Shown one piece after another: positions 9,700-31,868 of a DNA stretch of 64,000 bases. Every line of letters starts with the position of its first letter. Within the stretch, counting starts at the first letter, position 1. A model generated the notes under the pieces. It saw only the letters and a program-made list of their open reading frames with translations, was not told where the DNA came from and did no database searches. The DNA is from Dokdonia sinensis (lineage in GTDB: Bacteria > Bacteroidota > Bacteroidia > Flavobacteriales > Flavobacteriaceae). The stretch covers positions 186,001 through 250,000 of the forward strand of contig NZ_REFV01000003.1 in the NCBI RefSeq assembly GCF_003688895.1, written 5' to 3'. A program made the translations under genes and the position numbers.

Positions 9700-9905
9700 T
9701 ACTCTGATAATAAATCAAAAAGAGCTTTTTTATGCAAAATACACACTAACCCCACATTTGTTGTAAGAATAGGCGTATTTGTGTTGTTGAACGACTATAC
9801 ACATCATCTTATCTAAAAGTTGCCCAAAAGTTTCAGCCTTAACAAATTGAAATATAATTTAGTACCCTAATGGTACCCCAATATCATAAGATTATAGATT
9901 CTAAA

Positions 9906-11507
9906 ATGAAGTTAGTACACACGATAACACTCTTGTTATTTTCGATAACGCTCATTGCTCAGATAGAGAATGATGCAGAATATGCTGTTCTTGAAGACTC
10001 AGACAAGGCACAAATATCTTCTAGTCAGATAGGTGATAACGGCTTTAAGTTTGAAACTTTTAAAACAGGTATAAATTCTGAATATGCAGATTATGGAATA
10101 GGCTTTTACAGGGAGAAATTTTTGTCATTTTCTGCTCGTAAAATTGGAGCTTTAGCAAAAAAAGATCCCGCTACTTCAGAACCCTTTACAAAACTTTATT
10201 GTTCAGAAATAAGCTACGAGTATGATTTAAACCGCCCTAACTTATTTTCCCACATTCTCAATAAAAATGAAAATTTAGGCACCGTTTCTTTCTCGGCAGA
10301 CGGGAAGAAACTATTCTATACTGCAAGCTCAGACAATGACACACAACGCTTCCAATTGTATAGTGCAGATATGAATCCAGAGCGTGAAGGACAGTTTATT
10401 AATATAGAGCTAGTTCCTTTTAACAATCCAGATTATTCTTTTGAAAACCCTCACTTAAGCCGTGATGGAAAAACGTTATTCTTTGCTTCTAATCTACCTG
10501 AAGCATTGGGTGGATTTGACATCTTTCAAGTTAGCATAAAAGAAGATGGCTCATATGGTGACGTAGAGCGCGTAGAGGGCGCGGTAAACACAGTGCTAGA
10601 TGAAAAATTTCCACAGACGTCACTAGATGGTAAATATCTTTATTTCTCATCTAAGGGTCACTCTAATCTGGGTGGCTATGATATTTTTAGAAGTCGTAAA
10701 GCAGATTTAGGGTATGTTGCAACGCGTAATCTGGGAAACACTATTAATACATCTGCAGACGAAATCGCCTATATTCCAGCTACAAAAACAGTAGGATATA
10801 TGACTTCAAACCGCAAAGGCGGAAAGGGAAGTTATGACATTTACAAGCTTACAGAGTTTATGGTAGACCAGACCGCAAGCGGAGTTGTGCTTGATCTAGA
10901 GACTGGGATCCCACTTGAGAAAGCAACTGTTGTCTTACTAGATGCCCAGGGAACTGAAGTTGCTACATTACAAACTGCTCCAAACGGAACATATCGTTTT
11001 CCTGTAGATGCTTTTCTAGAGTATACTATCATTGCTTATAAAGACGGTTTTGAGAATGGATCTCTAGACTTAAAAACAGATACAAATCTTGTAAGCGTAT
11101 TTGAAAACAACCTAACATTAAAAGCAGCAGCCGCAGAAATCATTAAAACAGATGAAAAATCGTATATCAAAATAGATAATATACAGTTTGACTACAACAG
11201 CTCAGATATCAAACCCGTAAGCACCGTTACGCTCAATACCGTTTTCCAAACATTAAAAGCAAATCCTGATATAAAGGTGGCTATTAACGCTCACTCAGAC
11301 CAGCGTGGCAAAGACAGCTATAATCTACAACTTTCAGAAAAACGCGCTGCATCTGTATTACAATATCTTACGGACAAGGGCATTTCTAAAAGTCGATTAA
11401 TCTCAAAAGGATACGGAGAGACACAACCCATAAATATATGTGACCCGTGTAATTTAGAACAGTACGAGGAAAATAGACGAGTGGAATTTGTCATTATTCC
11501 AGACTAA
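9906..11507 (+). CDS. OmpA-family envelope protein with PD40 propeller and carboxypeptidase-regulatory-like domain
   Basis: 533 residues from the ATG at 9906; an ATG at 9870 would prepend 12 residues before the signal peptide MKLVHTITLLLFSITLIAQ. Order: signal peptide; several PD40/WD40-like blades (SFSADGKKLFYTAS, LSRDGKTLFFAS, SLDGKYLYFSS, GGFDIF, GGYDIF); a carboxypeptidase-regulatory-like domain (ASGVVLDLETGIPLEKATV); and a C-terminal OmpA peptidoglycan-binding domain (IQFDYNSSDIKP ... NAHSDQRG ... RLISKGYGE). The same domain set, minus an N-terminal TPR, is seen in PorE-type T9SS envelope proteins; a direct T9SS role here is inference. Followed by a strong terminator. Confidence 0.9.
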   Translation: MKLVHTITLLLFSITLIAQIENDAEYAVLEDSDKAQISSSQIGDNGFKFETFKTGINSEYADYGIGFYREKFLSFSARKIGALAKKDPATSEPFTKLYCSEISYEYDLNRPNLFSHILNKNENLGTVSFSADGKKLFYTASSDNDTQRFQLYSADMNPEREGQFINIELVPFNNPDYSFENPHLSRDGKTLFFASNLPEALGGFDIFQVSIKEDGSYGDVERVEGAVNTVLDEKFPQTSLDGKYLYFSSKGHSNLGGYDIFRSRKADLGYVATRNLGNTINTSADEIAYIPATKTVGYMTSNRKGGKGSYDIYKLTEFMVDQTASGVVLDLETGIPLEKATVVLLDAQGTEVATLQTAPNGTYRFPVDAFLEYTIIAYKDGFENGSLDLKTDTNLVSVFENNLTLKAAAAEIIKTDEKSYIKIDNIQFDYNSSDIKPVSTVTLNTVFQTLKANPDIKVAINAHSDQRGKDSYNLQLSEKRAASVLQYLTDKGISKSRLISKGYGETQPINICDPCNLEQYEENRRVEFVIIPD

Positions 11508-11540
11508 ATTATTCTAGTATTAACCATTTTATTTTTGAAG

Positions 11541-11568
11541 TAGTCATCAGTTGGGGGACTGATGGCTA
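11541..11568 (+). terminator. Intrinsic terminator of the OmpA-family gene
   Basis: Ten-bp stem AGTCATCAGT / ACTGATGGCT with a six-base loop, followed by a T-rich tract. The single non-Watson-Crick pair is T-G on the plus strand but would be C-A on the minus strand, which assigns it to the plus-strand transcript. Confidence 0.8.
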
Positions 11569-11602
11569 TTTCTTTTTTAGCACATTGTGCAGAATTAAAA
11601 AT

Positions 11603-23156: not shown

Positions 23157-24527
23157 TTAAAAATCAACATTAAGCAATTGACCCGTAAGCTGAAGCAATT
23201 GGATCTCAGCAAGTTTTGCTGTGTATTTTGCAGCATTCTTAGTGGTCTGAGCGTTTAAAAGGTTGAGTTGTGCCTGACGAAATTCTATACTTGTCACCTG
23301 CCCCAGTTTGAATCGTTCTTGAGAACGTTCAAAATTTGCCTGATTCGTAATTACGTTCTGCTCCTGAAGCCTGTAAATAGCAAGTGCATTTTTATAGTTA
23401 CCCTCTGCATTTGCAATATCTCGATACACTTGCTGCTCTAACTGCTCTTTAAGCAATTGCTGACTATCTAACGCTATTTTTGCATTCTTAAGCCCCACAA
23501 CAGACTGTCCTCCGTCAAAAAGATTCCAACGTAAACTAGCGCCCGCAGCTAGAGTGTTAGAAGTACGTGTTGTTCCTGGAAAAAATGCCGAGGCGGGGTT
23601 GTTTGATAAATTCCAACCGTAGCTTCCTGTTAGACCTATTGTAGGCAAAAATAGCCCCTTGGTCTTTTTAATCTCATAATCTGTAATTACAATATCTTGT
23701 TCTGCTTGAAGTAGGCTGACGTTATTAGACTTTGCTTTTTCTACATAACTTTCCATCACAAGTTCGTTTAGGAACACTAAAGTAGTGTCCGTACTTTTTA
23801 AATCTTCTAGCTCACGCGCAAGTACTACATTGAGGTCACGCTGCGCATTGCGCAACTGTTGCTGCGTGTTCAGAATATTAATACTATCTGTTACGATATC
23901 TACCTGTGCATTTAAGATTTCAAGTTTATTTACCTGCCCATATTCAAACTGATACGATGCACGGGTTTCTCTCTCTTTAGAGATCTCTAGCGCGTCACGT
24001 AAAACATTTAAGTTTTCTTCTATGCGCGCCACCTCATAATAAACAGAAAATAACTGCAACATTGTATTTTCTATAGTCTCACGAGCTTCCAGTTGTGATA
24101 GGTTGTAGCGCTCCTTGAGTTGCTTATAGTTATAGTACCGCCCCAATCCATCAAATAAGGTGTAACTCGCATTTATAGATGCGTCATAACGGGTGGTCTC
24201 TGCATCCAGAATTTCAAAATCTGGTCGCGGATTTCCGTTTTGATCTAACGCACCATTAAAATCTGTGTTACTACTCGTACGGTCAAAGTTTGCTCCCGCC
24301 AACCCAAAAACCGTGGGTAGATAATTAGAGTTTAAAATACTCGTGTTATTTTCGGCAACAGAAACTTGATTATTTGCAAGCTTAATTCCAAAATTATTTT
24401 CTAGCATTTGTCTAACAGCTTCTTGTCTTGACAAATAATCTAACTGTGATTCTTGGGTATACGCTTTCGCGAAAGCAAAAAAAACAAAAACATAAATCAC
24501 ACACTTTATTACACTTCCTATCTTCAT
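23157..24527 (-). CDS. TolC-family outer-membrane efflux protein (RND operon)
   Basis: 456 residues. The signal peptide ends FFAFAKAYTQ; AFAKA is encoded by a palindrome copy. The mature part shows the duplicated helical-barrel repeats of TolC-type proteins (ASYQFEYGQVNKLEILNAQVDI and SQERFKLGQVTSIEFRQAQLNLLNAQ). It is the last gene of a four-gene operon (adaptor, RND pump, unknown, TolC) and overlaps the preceding gene by 4 nt (ATGA), so it supplies the outer-membrane channel for that pump. Confidence 0.93.
   Translation of the reverse strand: MKIGSVIKCVIYVFVFFAFAKAYTQESQLDYLSRQEAVRQMLENNFGIKLANNQVSVAENNTSILNSNYLPTVFGLAGANFDRTSSNTDFNGALDQNGNPRPDFEILDAETTRYDASINASYTLFDGLGRYYNYKQLKERYNLSQLEARETIENTMLQLFSVYYEVARIEENLNVLRDALEISKERETRASYQFEYGQVNKLEILNAQVDIVTDSINILNTQQQLRNAQRDLNVVLARELEDLKSTDTTLVFLNELVMESYVEKAKSNNVSLLQAEQDIVITDYEIKKTKGLFLPTIGLTGSYGWNLSNNPASAFFPGTTRTSNTLAAGASLRWNLFDGGQSVVGLKNAKIALDSQQLLKEQLEQQVYRDIANAEGNYKNALAIYRLQEQNVITNQANFERSQERFKLGQVTSIEFRQAQLNLLNAQTTKNAAKYTAKLAEIQLLQLTGQLLNVDF
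24462..24476. repeat. Iterated palindrome in the TolC signal peptide
   Basis: CGCTTTCGCGAAAGC, read as AFAKA on the minus strand at the end of the signal peptide. Confidence 0.9.
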
Positions 24528-25198
24528 CCTATACTTTTGATTTTATGCACGAGTTCCTGCAATGTAAGTTTCTGTTTAAGGTTTTGAGCACTTGCATAAA
24601 TAATTTCTTCGTCCCCAAGCATTAAAATTAAATCTTCTTCTACTTCTTGTAAGCTCATATCTGCAGTAGTATATGTATTTGTGTTTCCCTGATGTTTGAG
24701 TACAATGCTACTCCCCTGCTGCACGAGACTAAAATTCTGATAATCCAAAAATCTATTTATACCACTCAGCATTTTAAAGCCTATTCCCCCAACGACAATG
24801 AGCAATCCATACCCAATAAGCTTTCCTAGTGCAAATTCATTATTACCAAAAAAGATAGCCATTAAAAGCCAAAAGCCTAACAACCCAAGCAGCGAGAGCA
24901 CAAAACCGATAAGTGTAGAAACAACATCCATAAGCTTTGCATGACCTGTTCTTAGAACCGTGAGTCCTTGTGAAGAGCTATCTACCGTGACTTGAAATCC
25001 TAAATCATACAAATACTCAAAATTTTTAATAGCTGTTTCTTTTTGAGCTATTTCTTCTTCGAGAATTTTTGTGTCAAGCACAAGCCCTCGTTTGTTTATC
25101 TCTTTTAGAAGATTGAGCTGCGCTTCGTACGTAAGTTTACTGGCATTATCTAAAACGACAATAAGCTCCCTCCCACTATGATCTTTATACAAATTCAT
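24524..25198 (-). CDS. Unknown two-span membrane protein embedded in an RND efflux operon
   Basis: 224 residues, family not recognised. A soluble N-part with a helical segment (LEEEIAQKETAIKNFEYLYDLGF) precedes two close hydrophobic spans (about 90-145, VVSTLIGFVLSLLGLLGFWLLMAIFF and LIGYGLLIVVGGIGFKML) and a soluble C-part ending LQELVHKIKSIG. It overlaps the RND stop by 1 nt and the TolC start by 4 nt, so it is translationally coupled to both and probably works with the pump. The role (assembly factor or accessory subunit) is inference. Confidence 0.7.
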   Translation of the reverse strand: MNLYKDHSGRELIVVLDNASKLTYEAQLNLLKEINKRGLVLDTKILEEEIAQKETAIKNFEYLYDLGFQVTVDSSSQGLTVLRTGHAKLMDVVSTLIGFVLSLLGLLGFWLLMAIFFGNNEFALGKLIGYGLLIVVGGIGFKMLSGINRFLDYQNFSLVQQGSSIVLKHQGNTNTYTTADMSLQEVEEDLILMLGDEEIIYASAQNLKQKLTLQELVHKIKSIG

Positions 25199-28100
25199 TA
25201 GGCAGTCTCAGTATTAGGGTTAAACGCCACTTGCTTGTTTTCTGGATTTGCTTCGGCTTCGTTTTCTGCTTCTTCCTCCATTTCCTTTACGGCTCGCTCG
25301 TAGTTTTCGCGAGGGACTTTTCTTCCTTTTACCAGTTTATCTGTTGTGGTTTTTGCCCAGTTACTGAAAGAAAGAAATATAGGTAACATTACAAGTGTGA
25401 GCACTGTTGCAAACCCAATTCCATAAGCAATACTAATTGCCATTGGGATTAAGAATTGTGCCTGACGACTTTCTTCAAAAATAAGCGGCGCCAGTCCAGC
25501 AATCGTTGTAATAGAGGTTAAGAATATAGCTCTAAAGCGAGAACGTCCAGCATCAAATATCGCATCGTCAAAAGTCATTCCTTCCCGTAAATTCGTATTG
25601 AATTTTCCAATGAGCACCAACCCATCATTTACCATAATTCCTATTAATGCTATGATACCCAGCATAGAAAGGATATTTACAGGAAAATCATGTATCCAAT
25701 GTCCCCAAGCGACTGCAGGCAAACTCAACGGGATAAGTAATAATAACATTAAAGGCTGGCTATAGCTTCTAAAGGTAAATGCAATTACAATATAAATGAG
25801 AAGCAACACGGCAAGTCCAACTGGCTTTAAAGAGGCGGTTAACTTTCCTGCCTCTCTGTTCTGACCTTCGTAAGAAGGAGTTACCGTAGGATATTTAGAC
25901 AATATTTCGGGCATTACGTTTTCGCGAAGGTCAGTCATTACATCTGTTGCGCTTACCTCTTTTGCATTTTTAAGATCGGCAGATATCTGAATCTCGCGCC
26001 TTCCATCTAAGTGGTTTACGGCAACGTCTCCACGTTCTATACTGTAACTCGCAATCTCGTTAAGCGGCACTTTTGCTCCCGTAGGGGTTGTAATACGCAT
26101 ATCGTCTAGATCTGTAATAGACGACCTATTATCGCGATCGTAGCGCACCCAGACACGTATCTCATCCTGGCCACGCTGGAAACGCTGTGCTTGTGTCCCA
26201 AAGAAACCTGCACGCACTTGTGTCATCACGGTCTGTAGGTTGAGACCCAGCGCATAAGCGCTTTCATTAAGTTCTAATCGTATTTCCTTGATTCCCGCCG
26301 GGTCATTGTCTGTCACATCCTTAAGAACAGGGTTGGTTTCTAAAGACTCTTTAAGCTCTGCTTTGGCAGCTTTTAACTCTTCTATGTTATTACCGAGCAA
26401 GGAGACTGAAACTGGACTCCCTCCAAAGTTTCCTCCACTACCATACACGAGACTCTCTACCCCAACGACAGGTCCTACTTTCTCGCGTAAGCGGGTTGTG
26501 ACCAAATCACTTGTAATCGCATTGGGTCGTTCTTCTCCTGGCAATAAATTTAAGGTAAGTGATGCTTGAGATGCTCCTGGACCCACAGTCTTAATTAGAT
26601 TCTCAAAAAGCTCTGTATTTGTGCCTGCCAAATATTCGTCGGTAAGTTCTTTGTTTACCTCGATGGCCTTTTCTTCTATAAACGAGATAATACTATCTGT
26701 CACCTTTTCATTTGTTCCATTAGGCATAGATAGCGTTACTTGAACACGATCACTTGCAATCTGTGGGAAGAACGCCCCGCGTATGATTCCTGCTTGAAAA
26801 CTTCCCATTGTCAAAATGATAAAGACGACGAAAAAAGAGAACATTAAAAATTTATAATCCAAAGCAAATCTTAAAATTGGACTGTATAAATTGTCACGCA
26901 ACCAACTCATTATACGGTCTCCAAATACATTAATGTATCTAAGCTTTGAGAATACATGTGCCATTCCTTTTTTAGGTGCATTGCTTTGTTTTCGTAATGC
27001 CTTAGAGTGCGCTAGGTGGGCCGGAAGTATGATTAAAGCTTCTACTAAGGATACCAGCAACGTCAACATCACTATGACAGAAACCTCACCGAAGAATTCA
27101 CCTATACGACCATCTAAAAAGAGAAAAATCCCAAAGGCCAAAATTGTCGTTGTAATTGCACTTAAAATAGGAGGCAGTACTTCCATCGTCCCATCTACTG
27201 CGGCTTGTATGGGAGTTTTACCACGTTCATAATGCTGATATATGTTTTCGGCAATTACGATTCCGTCATCTACTAGAATACCTATCACGATAATCATCCC
27301 AAAAAGAGATAATACGTTTATGGTAACATTAAAATATCCTGCAAGCATAAACATCCCGAGAAAGGCTACAGGTAAGCCAAAAGCCACCCAAAAGGCTAGT
27401 CTTGTGTTTAAAAATACAGATAAGAATAACAGGACAAGTAACATCCCGACTACTGCATTTTCTGTAAGTAATTTTGTACGTTGTACTAGTGTGATAGAAA
27501 GATCATTTACTACCGCAAGCTGAACGTTATTATACTTCTGGTTAAAATCTTCTATATAGACCTTTGTTGCCTCTGCTGCACCTATTAGATCTTCAGTATT
27601 AGTAGAAGTAATCGTAACGTTTACCGCGAGATTACCGTTGTAATAATTTGCGTTAGGTGTTTCAGAAAAACGATCTCTTACCTCTGCTACATCTTTAAGA
27701 CGTATTGTTCTCCCATTAGGATCTGAGCGCACTATAACATTTGAAAGTTCGTCACCGTAGTACGAGCGATTATTAGCACGTATAAGATACTCCTCTGCTT
27801 CTGTTTTTATCGTTCCTCCCGTGGTTAGTATGTTAGAGCGACTTACGGCTTGCGACACCTCAGCAAAGGAGAGATTATAAGCAAGTAAGCTGTTTTCATT
27901 TACTGATATTTCTATCTCCTCGGCGGGATAACCCGAGACATTTATTTGAGAAATTCCGTCTATTGCCCTTAGGTCATTTTCTACCTGGCGACCTATTTGT
28001 TTTAAGGTTGCAAGGTCGATGTTCTCCCCACTTATTGCAAAAGATATGGTTTGACGTATAGATTCTTGCTTGGACACCACAAGCGGCTCCATTCCCGTAG

Positions 28101-28458
28101 GAAATGAGGGAACACGGTCTACCGCGTTCTTTACTTCCAAGAGCATAAAATCTATATCTTTTCCTTTCTCAATCTCAACGTTTATGTTTCCGCTGTTTTC
28201 GCGAGAAGTAGACGTAACACGTTCTACGCCGTCAAGTCCCTTTAAGTTATCCTCTATTTTAAGAACGATCCCTTCCTCTACTTCTTGAGGAGATGCTCCA
28301 GGATAAGTTACATTGATATTGATATTCTTAGAATCTACTAATGGAAAGAAAGATGACTTTAGTGATAAAGCTCCCACAACGCCAAAAACAAAAAACATAA
28401 GTACAATCACATTTACTGCGACGTGATACTTAATAAAATATTCAATTATCTTGCGCAT
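25198..28458 (-). CDS. Efflux RND transporter permease (AcrB-like)
   Basis: 1086 residues, the usual size for an RND pump. An N-terminal membrane helix follows a basic start (MRKIIEYFIKYHVAVNVIVLMFFVFG); two large periplasmic loops and twelve helices are evident. The proton-relay Asp pair is present in the fourth helix (GILVDDGIVIAEN), and the tenth/eleventh-helix region reads GIIALIGIMVNDGLVLIGKF. The C-tail is acidic (EEEAENEAEANPENKQ). The adaptor gene ends 1 nt upstream. Substrate class cannot be fixed from sequence; drug- or lipid-efflux RND is likeliest. Confidence 0.95.
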   Translation of the reverse strand: MRKIIEYFIKYHVAVNVIVLMFFVFGVVGALSLKSSFFPLVDSKNININVTYPGASPQEVEEGIVLKIEDNLKGLDGVERVTSTSRENSGNINVEIEKGKDIDFMLLEVKNAVDRVPSFPTGMEPLVVSKQESIRQTISFAISGENIDLATLKQIGRQVENDLRAIDGISQINVSGYPAEEIEISVNENSLLAYNLSFAEVSQAVSRSNILTTGGTIKTEAEEYLIRANNRSYYGDELSNVIVRSDPNGRTIRLKDVAEVRDRFSETPNANYYNGNLAVNVTITSTNTEDLIGAAEATKVYIEDFNQKYNNVQLAVVNDLSITLVQRTKLLTENAVVGMLLVLLFLSVFLNTRLAFWVAFGLPVAFLGMFMLAGYFNVTINVLSLFGMIIVIGILVDDGIVIAENIYQHYERGKTPIQAAVDGTMEVLPPILSAITTTILAFGIFLFLDGRIGEFFGEVSVIVMLTLLVSLVEALIILPAHLAHSKALRKQSNAPKKGMAHVFSKLRYINVFGDRIMSWLRDNLYSPILRFALDYKFLMFSFFVVFIILTMGSFQAGIIRGAFFPQIASDRVQVTLSMPNGTNEKVTDSIISFIEEKAIEVNKELTDEYLAGTNTELFENLIKTVGPGASQASLTLNLLPGEERPNAITSDLVTTRLREKVGPVVGVESLVYGSGGNFGGSPVSVSLLGNNIEELKAAKAELKESLETNPVLKDVTDNDPAGIKEIRLELNESAYALGLNLQTVMTQVRAGFFGTQAQRFQRGQDEIRVWVRYDRDNRSSITDLDDMRITTPTGAKVPLNEIASYSIERGDVAVNHLDGRREIQISADLKNAKEVSATDVMTDLRENVMPEILSKYPTVTPSYEGQNREAGKLTASLKPVGLAVLLLIYIVIAFTFRSYSQPLMLLLLIPLSLPAVAWGHWIHDFPVNILSMLGIIALIGIMVNDGLVLIGKFNTNLREGMTFDDAIFDAGRSRFRAIFLTSITTIAGLAPLIFEESRQAQFLIPMAISIAYGIGFATVLTLVMLPIFLSFSNWAKTTTDKLVKGRKVPRENYERAVKEMEEEAENEAEANPENKQVAFNPNTETA

Positions 28459-28459
28459 C

Positions 28460-29596
28460 CTAATTGTCTTGTGTTTGGGTGTTTTCTTTGCCTTTATAAA
28501 CTTTTACAAGCATCCCTGCATAAGCGCCAGGTACTGGTTTACTTACAATCGCAGTTCCCTCTGGCACACCTTTTACAACCACTTCCTTCTCAGAAAAATA
28601 AACAGGGTTTACTTTAATTACATCAAGAATAGAGTCACGCACGGCGAAAAGCTGATTTTCTGGCTGTAATAATCCTCGGGGGATAGAAATAGCATTCGTT
28701 TCTTCTTTGGCTTGAAGTACGGCTTCTAGATATACCCCTTCTCTAAGTTCTTTATCGCTTACTTCAATGTAAGCGTTTATTGTTTGTGATGCTTGGTCTA
28801 TATTTCCATTTACTCGGGTTACTTTTCCCTTATACTGTTTATTACCGTCTATGGTATTCAATTGCACTTCGTTTCCTACTTTTAACAAGTCTGCGTACGT
28901 TTTACTTATTGCCACTTCAAGTTCGTAAACACTAGTATCGATAAATTCTCCTAGCTTCTGTCCAGACCTCACGAGTGTTCCTTCGGTTACTAAAGCTTCA
29001 GTAAGAATACCGCTGAAGGGTGCTGTAATTCTAAATTTTCCTAATCGCTGTTCGAGATTTTTTACATTGTAATATGTGGTCAGAATATTTCGGCCAGAGA
29101 TAAAGTAGCGTTCTTTCTCGCTGGTGATTTCTGGAAGTTCTGGTGTGGTTTTGTTTACGTCAAAATTATTGAGGTAAGTATCCCATTTTACGAAAGCGGA
29201 AGGATAGTCCAACCTCAAATCTGGCATAATAGCAGTGATCTGATTATACAATGCACTTTTTTGAGATTGTACGGTTGCATAATATTCTGAGCTATTTAAA
29301 CTAAGCAAAGTTTCTCCCCTGCTGTAGGTTTGCCCTGGTTTAAAGAGCTTGCTACCCTTTTGTAGCACTCCTTGCACCTCAGAAAAAAGCTCCAACCGTC
29401 GCTGAGAAACCAAGTTTCCATTTGCCGAAATATTAATGGGTACAATTCCATTTTTTACGGTGTCAACAAAAACGGTTTTTACGACTTTTTTAGGCTTGGG
29501 ACGAGTCCTCTGATTACTCGCTACGATGGCCTGAGATGCAAAATAAGCCCCTATAATAAGGAGCACCCCGAGGAGGGAAAGAATAATTTTACGCAT
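28460..29596 (-). CDS. RND efflux periplasmic adaptor (AcrA/HlyD family)
   Basis: 378 residues. It has an N-terminal membrane anchor (LLGVLLIIGAYFASQAIVAS), a lipoyl-like half domain (LFSEVQGVLQKGSKLFKPGQTYSRGETL), a helical hairpin, the second half (FRITAPFSGILTEALVTEGTLVRSGQKLGEFID), then beta-barrel and membrane-proximal domains. It is the first gene of the adaptor-RND-unknown-TolC operon; a TAGCTTTG -7 box lies 41 nt upstream. Confidence 0.93.
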   Translation of the reverse strand: MRKIILSLLGVLLIIGAYFASQAIVASNQRTRPKPKKVVKTVFVDTVKNGIVPINISANGNLVSQRRLELFSEVQGVLQKGSKLFKPGQTYSRGETLLSLNSSEYYATVQSQKSALYNQITAIMPDLRLDYPSAFVKWDTYLNNFDVNKTTPELPEITSEKERYFISGRNILTTYYNVKNLEQRLGKFRITAPFSGILTEALVTEGTLVRSGQKLGEFIDTSVYELEVAISKTYADLLKVGNEVQLNTIDGNKQYKGKVTRVNGNIDQASQTINAYIEVSDKELREGVYLEAVLQAKEETNAISIPRGLLQPENQLFAVRDSILDVIKVNPVYFSEKEVVVKGVPEGTAIVSKPVPGAYAGMLVKVYKGKENTQTQDN

Positions 29597-29637: not shown

Positions 29638-29645
29638 CAAAGCTA
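29638..29645 (-). promoter_or_regulatory. -7 box TAGCTTTG of the RND operon
   Basis: Minus-strand match to TAnnTTTG, 41 nt upstream of the adaptor ATG. No convincing -33 TTG is seen at the usual distance. Confidence 0.45.
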
Positions 29646-29790: not shown

Positions 29791-29798
29791 TACATTTG
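29791..29798 (+). promoter_or_regulatory. -7 box TACATTTG before a structured element
   Basis: Exact TAnnTTTG on the plus strand, with no plus-strand CDS downstream until 31927. The predicted start (about 29805) falls at the base of the hairpin that follows. Confidence 0.45.
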
Positions 29799-29804
29799 TA
29801 TTAT

Positions 29805-29875
29805 CATAAAAAAGGTGTCGCACCCCCCAACTATTTCCCCCAACGATGCTTTGCATCACGCGGCACCTTTTGTTT
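29805..29875 (+). ncRNA. Candidate small RNA with closed terminal stem and C-rich loop
   Basis: A 12-bp terminal stem (29810-29821 with 29860-29871) encloses an inner hairpin GATGC-TTT-GCATC (29845-29857) and an unpaired C-rich stretch with CCCCCAAC twice. The only imperfect pair is T-G on the plus strand (C-A on the minus), which favours plus-strand transcription; a TACATTTG box lies just upstream and a TTTTGTTT tract closes the 3' end. No plus-strand gene precedes it, so it is not simply an mRNA terminator. No Rfam family recognised. Confidence 0.45.
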
Positions 29876-29882
29876 ATATATA

Positions 29883-29914
29883 AAAACCTCGACACAGATA
29901 TGTATCGAGGTTTT
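29883..29914 (-). terminator. Intrinsic terminator of the ABC-F gene
   Basis: Stem AAAACCTCGAyAC/GTrTCGAGGTTTT. The imperfect pair is T-G on the minus strand and C-A on the plus, so it belongs to the minus-strand ABC-F transcript. Confidence 0.8.
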
Positions 29915-29924
29915 GATTTTAATA

Positions 29925-29940
29925 CGCTTTCGCGAAAGCG
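29925..29940. repeat. Iterated palindrome between stop codon and terminator
   Basis: Exact 16-mer, 14 nt after the ABC-F stop and just before its terminator (minus-strand direction). Confidence 0.93.
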
Positions 29941-29954
29941 GAGTTCAAGAAATA

Positions 29955-31868
29955 CTAACTCAACGCATCGAGCTCCTCAGTTATTTTCTCCCAATCTTCC
30001 ATAAACTGGTCGAGTTGCTTTTTCTTCTTGTTGTAATTCTCAAAGAAATTAGGTTTTGCCATGGTCTCCTCATAGTTTACAGCAAGCTGGACATCTATTT
30101 CCTTAATCTCGCGTTCCAGTTTATTGATATTAGACTCTACCTTGCTCAATCTGTTATTTAGGGATTTGAGCTTCTTTTGCTCTTCGTAGGATTGTTTTGT
30201 CTCCTTTGGCTTATCGGCTACTTTTTTTATTACGTCGCGTTTTTCGATTTCGCGCAAGTTTGTCACTTCACGTTCTTCTAAGTAATAATCTATATCTCCT
30301 AGATATTCTTTGATACGCTGGTCTTTAAATTCGTACACTCTATCTGTCAAGCCTTGCAAGAAATCACGATCGTGAGACACGACTATCAGGGTTCCTTCAA
30401 ACTGTTTAAGACTATCCTTAAGTACATTTTTAGATTTGATGTCGAGGTGGTTTGTAGGCTCATCCATTACTAGGACATTAAAGGGTTGCAGCATTAGTTT
30501 TGCCAGCGCCAGCCTATTGCGCTCACCTCCAGAAAGGACGCGCACATACTTATCTACCTCTTCTCCACGAAACAAAAACGAACCGAGAATGTTGCGCACA
30601 TTAGGCCGTGTTCTTTCGTCTGCCGCGTCGATCATTGTTTCCTCGACGGTTTTTGTACCGTCTAGGTATTCGGCTTGATTTTGAGCAAAATAACCTATTT
30701 GCACATTATGCCCTAACTTCACTTTACCGTTGTGTTCGAGCTCGCCCACAATGATTTTTGCCAGGGTAGATTTGCCCTGACCATTTTGCCCGACAAAAGC
30801 AGTTTTTGTATCCCGCTCGATAAGTAAATCTATATTTTGAAGCACTTTTTTGTCTCCATAGTTCTTTGCAACGTCTTCAGCCTCTACTACTACTTTGCCA
30901 GGAGTTACAGATACTGGAAAACGCAGGGTCATCACGCTGTTATCATCCTCATCTACTTCGATACGGTCTATACGGTCTAACTTCTTAATGAGCGATTGGG
31001 CCATTGTAGCTTTAGAAGCCTTTGCGCGGAATTTTTCGATGAGTTTTTCAGTTTGCTCTATTTGCTTCTGTTGATTTTTTTGAGAAGCCAGTTGTTGCTC
31101 ACGTAATTCCTTACGTAGGACAAGATATTCTGTATATGGTTTTGGGTAATCGTAAATGCGCCCAAGTGAAATCTCAATGGTACGATTTGTTACATTATCC
31201 AGAAACATCTTATCGTGAGAAACTATTACTACTGCGCCAGTATATCCTCTTAAAAATGTCTCTAACCAAATAATAGATTCTATATCAAGGTGGTTTGTAG
31301 GCTCATCCAGCAATAGGATATCATTATCCTGTAGTAAGAGCTTTGCAAGCTCAATACGCATACGCCATCCACCTGAGAATGTATCTGTGATCTTCTCAAA
31401 GTCTTCTCGCTTAAAACCTAATCCTTGTAAAATTCGCTCAGTCTCTCCCTTATAACTATAACCCCCGTGCACCTCATACTGCTGCTGCACATCGTTTATA
31501 TCAATCATTAATTGATTGTAACCTTCACTTTCATAATCTGTGCGCGTCGCCAGCTGAGTATTGATATCCTCCATTTGCGCTTCTAGTTTTTTTATTTCCT
31601 GAAAAGCTTCGTAAGATTCTTCAAGTACGGTGCGACCTTCAACAAAATCAATATCCTGTTTTAAAAAACCTATGGTTACTTCCTTTTCAATCGCTATAGA
31701 GCCTGTATCATACTGTTGCTCGCCAGAAATAATGCGAAGCATCGTAGACTTACCAGCTCCGTTTTTTCCCACCAATCCTACGCGGTCACCGTGACCTAAT
31801 CTATAGGTGATTTCTTCAAATAAATATTCGCCCTGAAAAGAGACGGAAAGGTTATGGATATTAAGCAT
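29955..31868 (-). CDS. ABC-F family ATPase (Uup/EttA-like)
   Basis: 637 residues from the ATG at 31868 (MLNIHNLSVSFQG); an upstream in-frame Met at 31961 would start inside the region that encodes the divergent DUF983 gene. Two ABC domains in one chain, no membrane segment: Walker A GKNGAGKST and GQNGQGKST, signatures FSGGWRMRIELAK and LSGGERNRLALAK, Walker B LLLDEPTNHLD and VMDEPTNHLD, with an ABC-F linker rich in Lys/Gln between. The C-terminal coiled coil (SLNNRLSKVESNINKLEREIKEID) is typical of Uup-type proteins. These act on ribosomes or DNA-related processes rather than in transport. Confidence 0.93.
   Translation of the reverse strand: MLNIHNLSVSFQGEYLFEEITYRLGHGDRVGLVGKNGAGKSTMLRIISGEQQYDTGSIAIEKEVTIGFLKQDIDFVEGRTVLEESYEAFQEIKKLEAQMEDINTQLATRTDYESEGYNQLMIDINDVQQQYEVHGGYSYKGETERILQGLGFKREDFEKITDTFSGGWRMRIELAKLLLQDNDILLLDEPTNHLDIESIIWLETFLRGYTGAVVIVSHDKMFLDNVTNRTIEISLGRIYDYPKPYTEYLVLRKELREQQLASQKNQQKQIEQTEKLIEKFRAKASKATMAQSLIKKLDRIDRIEVDEDDNSVMTLRFPVSVTPGKVVVEAEDVAKNYGDKKVLQNIDLLIERDTKTAFVGQNGQGKSTLAKIIVGELEHNGKVKLGHNVQIGYFAQNQAEYLDGTKTVEETMIDAADERTRPNVRNILGSFLFRGEEVDKYVRVLSGGERNRLALAKLMLQPFNVLVMDEPTNHLDIKSKNVLKDSLKQFEGTLIVVSHDRDFLQGLTDRVYEFKDQRIKEYLGDIDYYLEEREVTNLREIEKRDVIKKVADKPKETKQSYEEQKKLKSLNNRLSKVESNINKLEREIKEIDVQLAVNYEETMAKPNFFENYNKKKKQLDQFMEDWEKITEELDALS

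Follow-up and report, generated by a model that had tools for sequence, protein, structure and literature searches.

A candidate C-rich small RNA gene in Dokdonia sinensis and its complementarity to a hairpin-loop motif of the genus

The ABC-F/RND intergenic region and its candidate RNA

The DNA considered here is a 64,000-nt stretch of the Dokdonia sinensis genome (contig NZ_REFV01000003.1, positions 186,001 to 250,000), referred to below as the window, and its subject is a candidate C-rich small RNA (sRNA) of the plus strand, at window positions 29791-29880. The candidate lies between two transcription units of the minus strand, a gene for an ABC-F family ATPase and an RND efflux operon. The ABC-F gene (29955-31865/31961, recognized by the Pfam families ABC_tran and ABC_tran_Xtn) is upstream of the candidate on the minus strand and is followed by T1, a terminator-like minus-strand hairpin with a 14-bp stem (29882-29914). 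The RND operon starts with the gene for a HlyD-type membrane fusion protein (28460-29596) and also includes those for an AcrB-type pump (25198-28458) and an outer-membrane efflux protein (23157-24527), all on the minus strand. Its promoter reads TTAAC...TAGCTTTG, with the -7 box TAGCTTTG at 29638-29645 on that strand, and is conserved across the aligned Dokdonia genomes. Because the candidate is sited between T1 and this promoter, about 170 bp upstream of the RND start, its reading as a leader of the RND operon was rejected, the operon being separated from it by its own conserved promoter.

The features that the first-pass annotation had described at this site, from the letters alone, are confirmed as present and non-random. 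The -7 box TACATTTG (29791-29798, plus strand) fits TAHHTTTG, the flavobacterial -7 consensus established by RNA-seq in Flavobacterium johnsoniae (PMC6847099), and places the predicted start at about 29803 if its G is counted as -5, i.e., near the 29805 proposed earlier, if not at that exact position. The 12-bp outer stem, with arms at 29810-29821 and 29860-29871, has a single U-G wobble, T29818-G29863 on the plus strand, which is C-A on the minus strand. Its 3' arm is followed by GTTT, and the end of the arm together with GTTT forms a U-rich tail, TTTTGTTT, at 29868-29875. Within the loop, CCCCCAAC occurs twice (29824-29831 and 29837-29844), ahead of an inner hairpin, GATGC-TTT-GCATC, at 29845-29857; both runs are exposed, their C positions being unpaired with a probability of 0.99-1.0 in the ensemble. 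The -7 box, the hairpin with its U-rich tail and the fold together predict an sRNA of about 73 nt (29803-29875, plus strand).

The plus-strand fold reaches -19.9 kcal/mol (z = -4.58), a stability equalled by none of 200 shuffled sequences, and the same stretch read on the minus strand folds with z = -0.51. Stems of this wide-loop class (at least 12 bp with at least five GC pairs and at most one GU pair, and a loop of 25-60 nt) number one on the plus strand of the window, which is the candidate, and none on the minus strand, for an expectation of 0.175 per strand per 64 kb derived from 40 dinucleotide shuffles. A scan for simple terminators found none in the candidate, whose loop is too wide and whose tail reads TTTTGTTT. 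Regarding the promoter, TAHHTTTG occurs 0.50 times per kb and strand in the intergenic DNA of the contig, so that chance alone would place a box in the 25 nt or so upstream in roughly 1% of cases. The 277-kb contig has 85 intergenic stems that reach 10 bp or more, and two of them have a -7 box at most 45 nt upstream, namely the candidate and a GUUGGGGGAC hairpin at window position 11541, a member of the motif described below.

Search for relatives of the candidate

The order of the ABC-F gene and the RND operon, as well as both flanks of the region, are kept in most Dokdonia relatives, and the stretch from T1 to the RND promoter is hypervariable and unalignable between species. The candidate is absent from every Dokdonia T1-RND spacer read, and BLAST searches of 59 relatives and of the full set of 18 Dokdonia genomes returned no relative; against relatives, phages and plasmids, only chance matches of 15-31 nt were obtained, and those inspected fell mostly in coding DNA. 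When 400 genomes of the family were searched with a single-sequence covariance model, the inspected matches proved to be either unrelated terminators, some 34 nt long, or chance stretches with low scores. An exact-pattern scan gave no match over public genome contigs and 39 matches in viral contigs, none of them examined individually. By these searches, which a relative with diverged sequence and different spacing could escape, the candidate is an orphan, found in one species only.

In an Rfam scan of the window, only two tRNAs scored above the gathering score, and the candidate was unmatched. The sub-threshold families ncr1175 and ncr1015 cover two hairpins; the better of them, ncr1175 (RF02450), resembles the region in its two-hairpin layout and gave a weak match of 26.5 bits over 29812-29916. 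However, this is far under its gathering score of 60, the match spans the candidate and T1 together, and ncr1175 is a Bacillus RNA; it was treated as chance. An integron attC site (RYYYAAC/GTTRRRY) was ruled out on the grounds that the repeats are direct and not inverted, and a multi-copy miniature inverted-repeat transposable element (MITE) or repetitive extragenic palindrome (REP) on the grounds that the candidate is single copy. Tandem CCCCAAC was seen in the genus once in plain intergenic DNA (L354) and once within an open reading frame (ORF; L355), and both cases were dismissed as chance.

A hairpin motif with a constant G-rich loop

The C-rich stretches had earlier been proposed to pair with G-rich ribosome-binding regions. 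This mechanism is unlikely, because Bacteroidia ribosomes do not use Shine-Dalgarno pairing (PMC6847099, PMC9976891); moreover, the 22 genomic GTTGGGGG sites, inspected against ORFs by eye and not by statistics, show no visible clustering at start codons. The sequences that the C-rich repeats do match are of one particular G-rich kind and form the apical loop of a hairpin motif found throughout the genus. GTTGGGGGAC is the sequence of six of the 22 sites. None of the six is in a long ORF, and five have UGGGGG as the apical loop of a hairpin that precedes a terminator or T-run. The sixth (L255, at G000:C23:23995-24004) is in opposite orientation to its genes and gives a C-rich loop between murD-like and ftsW-like genes; this loop, GUCCCCCAAC, is set in a long hairpin and is a full 10-nt complement of the loop motif.

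The motif combines a constant apical loop, GU-UGGGGG-AC, with covarying stems, and its usual place is after a stop codon and before a terminator. There are 42 GUUGGGGGAC sites in the 18 Dokdonia genomes, versus six for the reversed control pattern, and no general excess across the family in 300 sampled genomes. Over 26 distinct sites, the stem extends beyond the closing GU/AC by 3.08 pairs, versus 0.83 with shuffled partners; this extension was reached in none of 2000 shuffles, and the stems therefore vary with pairing maintained. A minority of the 42 sites lie within ORFs (e.g., L274, L347, L348 and L350), and the non-coding copies follow genes resembling, by sequence and not by family models, those for a TonB-dependent receptor, an OmpA-family protein, 2-oxoglutarate dehydrogenase E2, and others. 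The window's copy (11537-11572, plus strand), which is followed by TTTTTT and lies 3' of an OmpA-family gene (9870-11507), has no Rfam match and exemplifies the partner class proposed below for the candidate. Copies of the motif are L244, L250, L251 and L264 in the host genome and many of L265-L294 and L345-L352 in other Dokdonia; at L277, L346 and L352, the GUUGGGGGAC hairpin precedes an ORF by about 170-190 nt, and is hence at a 5' and not a 3' end.

Two of the host copies, L244 (G000:C5:50762) and L264 (G000:C43:41580), resemble independent intergenic sRNA genes. Each has a 16-bp NarL-like 7-2-7 inverted repeat (AGGGGTATTTACCCCT and GGGGGCATTTACCCCT, respectively) 81-102 nt upstream of the loop, and no NarL-like site with at most one mismatch was found in 277 kb of background. 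With its constant loop, its covarying stems and its frequent location 3' of outer-membrane-protein genes, the GUUGGGGGAC hairpin group is the firmer and readily testable result, and a stronger lead than the candidate itself. A conserved C-rich partner of the GUUGGGGGAC RNAs might be sought at AGGGGYATTTACCCCT sites and in murD-ftsW spacers across Dokdonia.

Proposed role, rival explanations and other elements

The apical loop of the motif contains GUUGGGGG, to which CCCCCAAC is exactly complementary over 8 nt, and the second C-run, in its context UCCCCCAAC, matches the loop motif over 9 nt. Because this exact loop complement is displayed twice and fully exposed, it suggests a decoy or antisense role against the GUUGGGGGAC hairpins. 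Our tentative preference, held with less than even confidence, is for a species-specific sRNA gene of the plus strand whose product, if made, would most likely pair with GUUGGGGGAC loops as a decoy or antisense RNA. Transcription would begin from the TACATTTG box, at about 29803, and end near 29875, where the outer hairpin and its U-rich tail would bring RNA polymerase to a stop. The resulting RNA would present a single-stranded segment of about 23 nt, held by its outer stem and inner hairpin and displaying CCCCCAAC twice, and in cells this segment would pair with the UGGGGG apical loops of GUUGGGGGAC hairpins, not with ribosome-binding sites. Any effect would then fall on sRNA-like genes and on the 3' ends of outer-membrane-protein mRNAs. 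What stands of the original C-rich sRNA proposal is an sRNA-like anatomy of the plus strand (box, fold, repeats and U-rich tail), and what finds no support is conservation in relatives and the ribosome-binding mechanism. It is rather improbable that the candidate is, more specifically, a newly arisen, species-specific, two-site C-rich decoy whose targets are the UGGGGG loops of a regulatory hairpin family that spans the genus and has not been described before, made up of sRNA-like genes, two of them with NarL-type sites upstream, and the 3' ends of TonB-receptor, OmpA-family and other mRNAs.

Several described systems offer partial likenesses. RepG of Helicobacter pylori (PMC8295292) pairs through a C-rich single strand with an RNA G-run, as the candidate might by analogy. 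However, the G-run proposed here is an apical hairpin loop located mostly at 3' ends, and no sequence relation is claimed. Rfp18 of Flavobacterium psychrophilum (PMC9723704) is, like the candidate, an intergenic flavobacterial sRNA candidate with a strong structure and a sigma-A type -7 box. In contrast, Rfp18 is conserved in its genus, was proven by deletion and pairs via its third stem-loop (PMC9723704), and the likeness is one of description only. The repeated complement of a seed-like sequence also recalls sRNA sponges (discussed in PMC7366714) and could titrate RNAs, but the predicted candidate exists in one species only.

A number of observations weigh against the sRNA reading. No -33 TTTG or TTG stands at normal spacing from TACATTTG, the nearest TTG being 27 nt away; the -33 signal is weak in F. 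johnsoniae promoters as well (PMC6847099). The 38-nt outer loop is unusual for a terminator. The candidate is confined to one species, and the 17 other Dokdonia yielded no homologue, whereas the loop motif extends through the whole genus. In addition, the complementarity was spotted post hoc, with a match of AAC after a C-run expected in about 2% of cases by chance according to our own base-composition estimate, and the two C-runs may share one origin. Finally, co-folding of the candidate with three 3' untranslated region (UTR) hairpins brought no gain for two and little for the third, plain co-folding being unable to represent loop-loop contacts and hence uninformative for them.

Close in likelihood to the sRNA reading, and a real possibility if a somewhat doubtful one, is a back-up or bidirectional terminator between the ABC-F gene and the RND operon, devoid of any function in trans. 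Minus-strand read-through past T1 would end at GGTGCCGC...GCGACACC-TTTTTT, thereby insulating the RND promoter. When the first-pass annotation denied that the stem is a leftover terminator, it left out of account the ABC-F gene of the minus strand, which ends at 29955; six T follow the stem on the minus strand, and a GC stem flanked by T-rich sequence on either side is what a bidirectional intrinsic terminator looks like, stems with T-runs on both sides being common intergenic terminators in the family. However, T1 is already present 3' of the ABC-F gene, the aligned relatives have no counterpart of the second hairpin, and the minus-strand stem, with a z of only -0.5, carries its C-A mismatch on the very strand of the upstream gene. 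The 38-nt loop with its inner hairpin is also atypical of such terminators, and the candidate's own -7 box and the C repeats would be left unexplained.

That the minus strand is the functional one is very unlikely. The stretch would then prolong the 3' UTR of the ABC-F mRNA and carry GUUGGGGG twice before a terminator as a loose member of the GUUGGGGGAC group; GUUGGGGG is indeed present twice on this strand, and the group usually stands just upstream of terminators, but both copies (GUUGGGGGAA and GUUGGGGGGU) lack the loop-closing AC of the group, the minus strand folds poorly, read-through of T1 would be required, and nothing similar is found at any other Dokdonia ABC-F 3' end. A neutral origin, with the palindrome a functionless product of chance or decay in a fast-changing spacer, would fit a single-copy, single-species element in a segment between T1 and the RND promoter that cannot be aligned between species. 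It is nonetheless unlikely, given that chance would seldom produce such a stem (expectation, 0.175 per strand) and that the box, the better-folding strand and the repeats share one orientation.

If the sRNA reading is correct, the candidate would be a testable trans-acting sRNA in marine bacteria of the genus Dokdonia, for which our literature search found no sRNA study, and it would supply a partner for a Dokdonia-enriched hairpin-loop motif without known role.

Two other elements were observed. A palindrome of genus-wide type, CGCTTTCGCGAAAGCG, lies at 29925-29940, 3' of the ABC-F gene, and is directly 3' of this gene in most other Dokdonia genomes too. It has 18 copies in the 64-kb window at up to one mismatch, versus none expected: those at 2868, 12437, 17768, 23135, 29925, 32335, 35715, 38418, 47200, 48981, 53250, 54449 and 62355, and five further copies that carry one mismatch. 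In other Flavobacteriaceae, a nearly invariant, RNA-like intergenic element containing GCCATAGCATAAGTAGGTTAAGTTCATGGTAAGATTTGGGGCAAAAAAGGTGGAGA and ending with a terminator is present at 26 loci (L096-L098, L100 and L102-L123); two copies were searched against Rfam and gave no match, and the element looks like an undescribed conserved sRNA.
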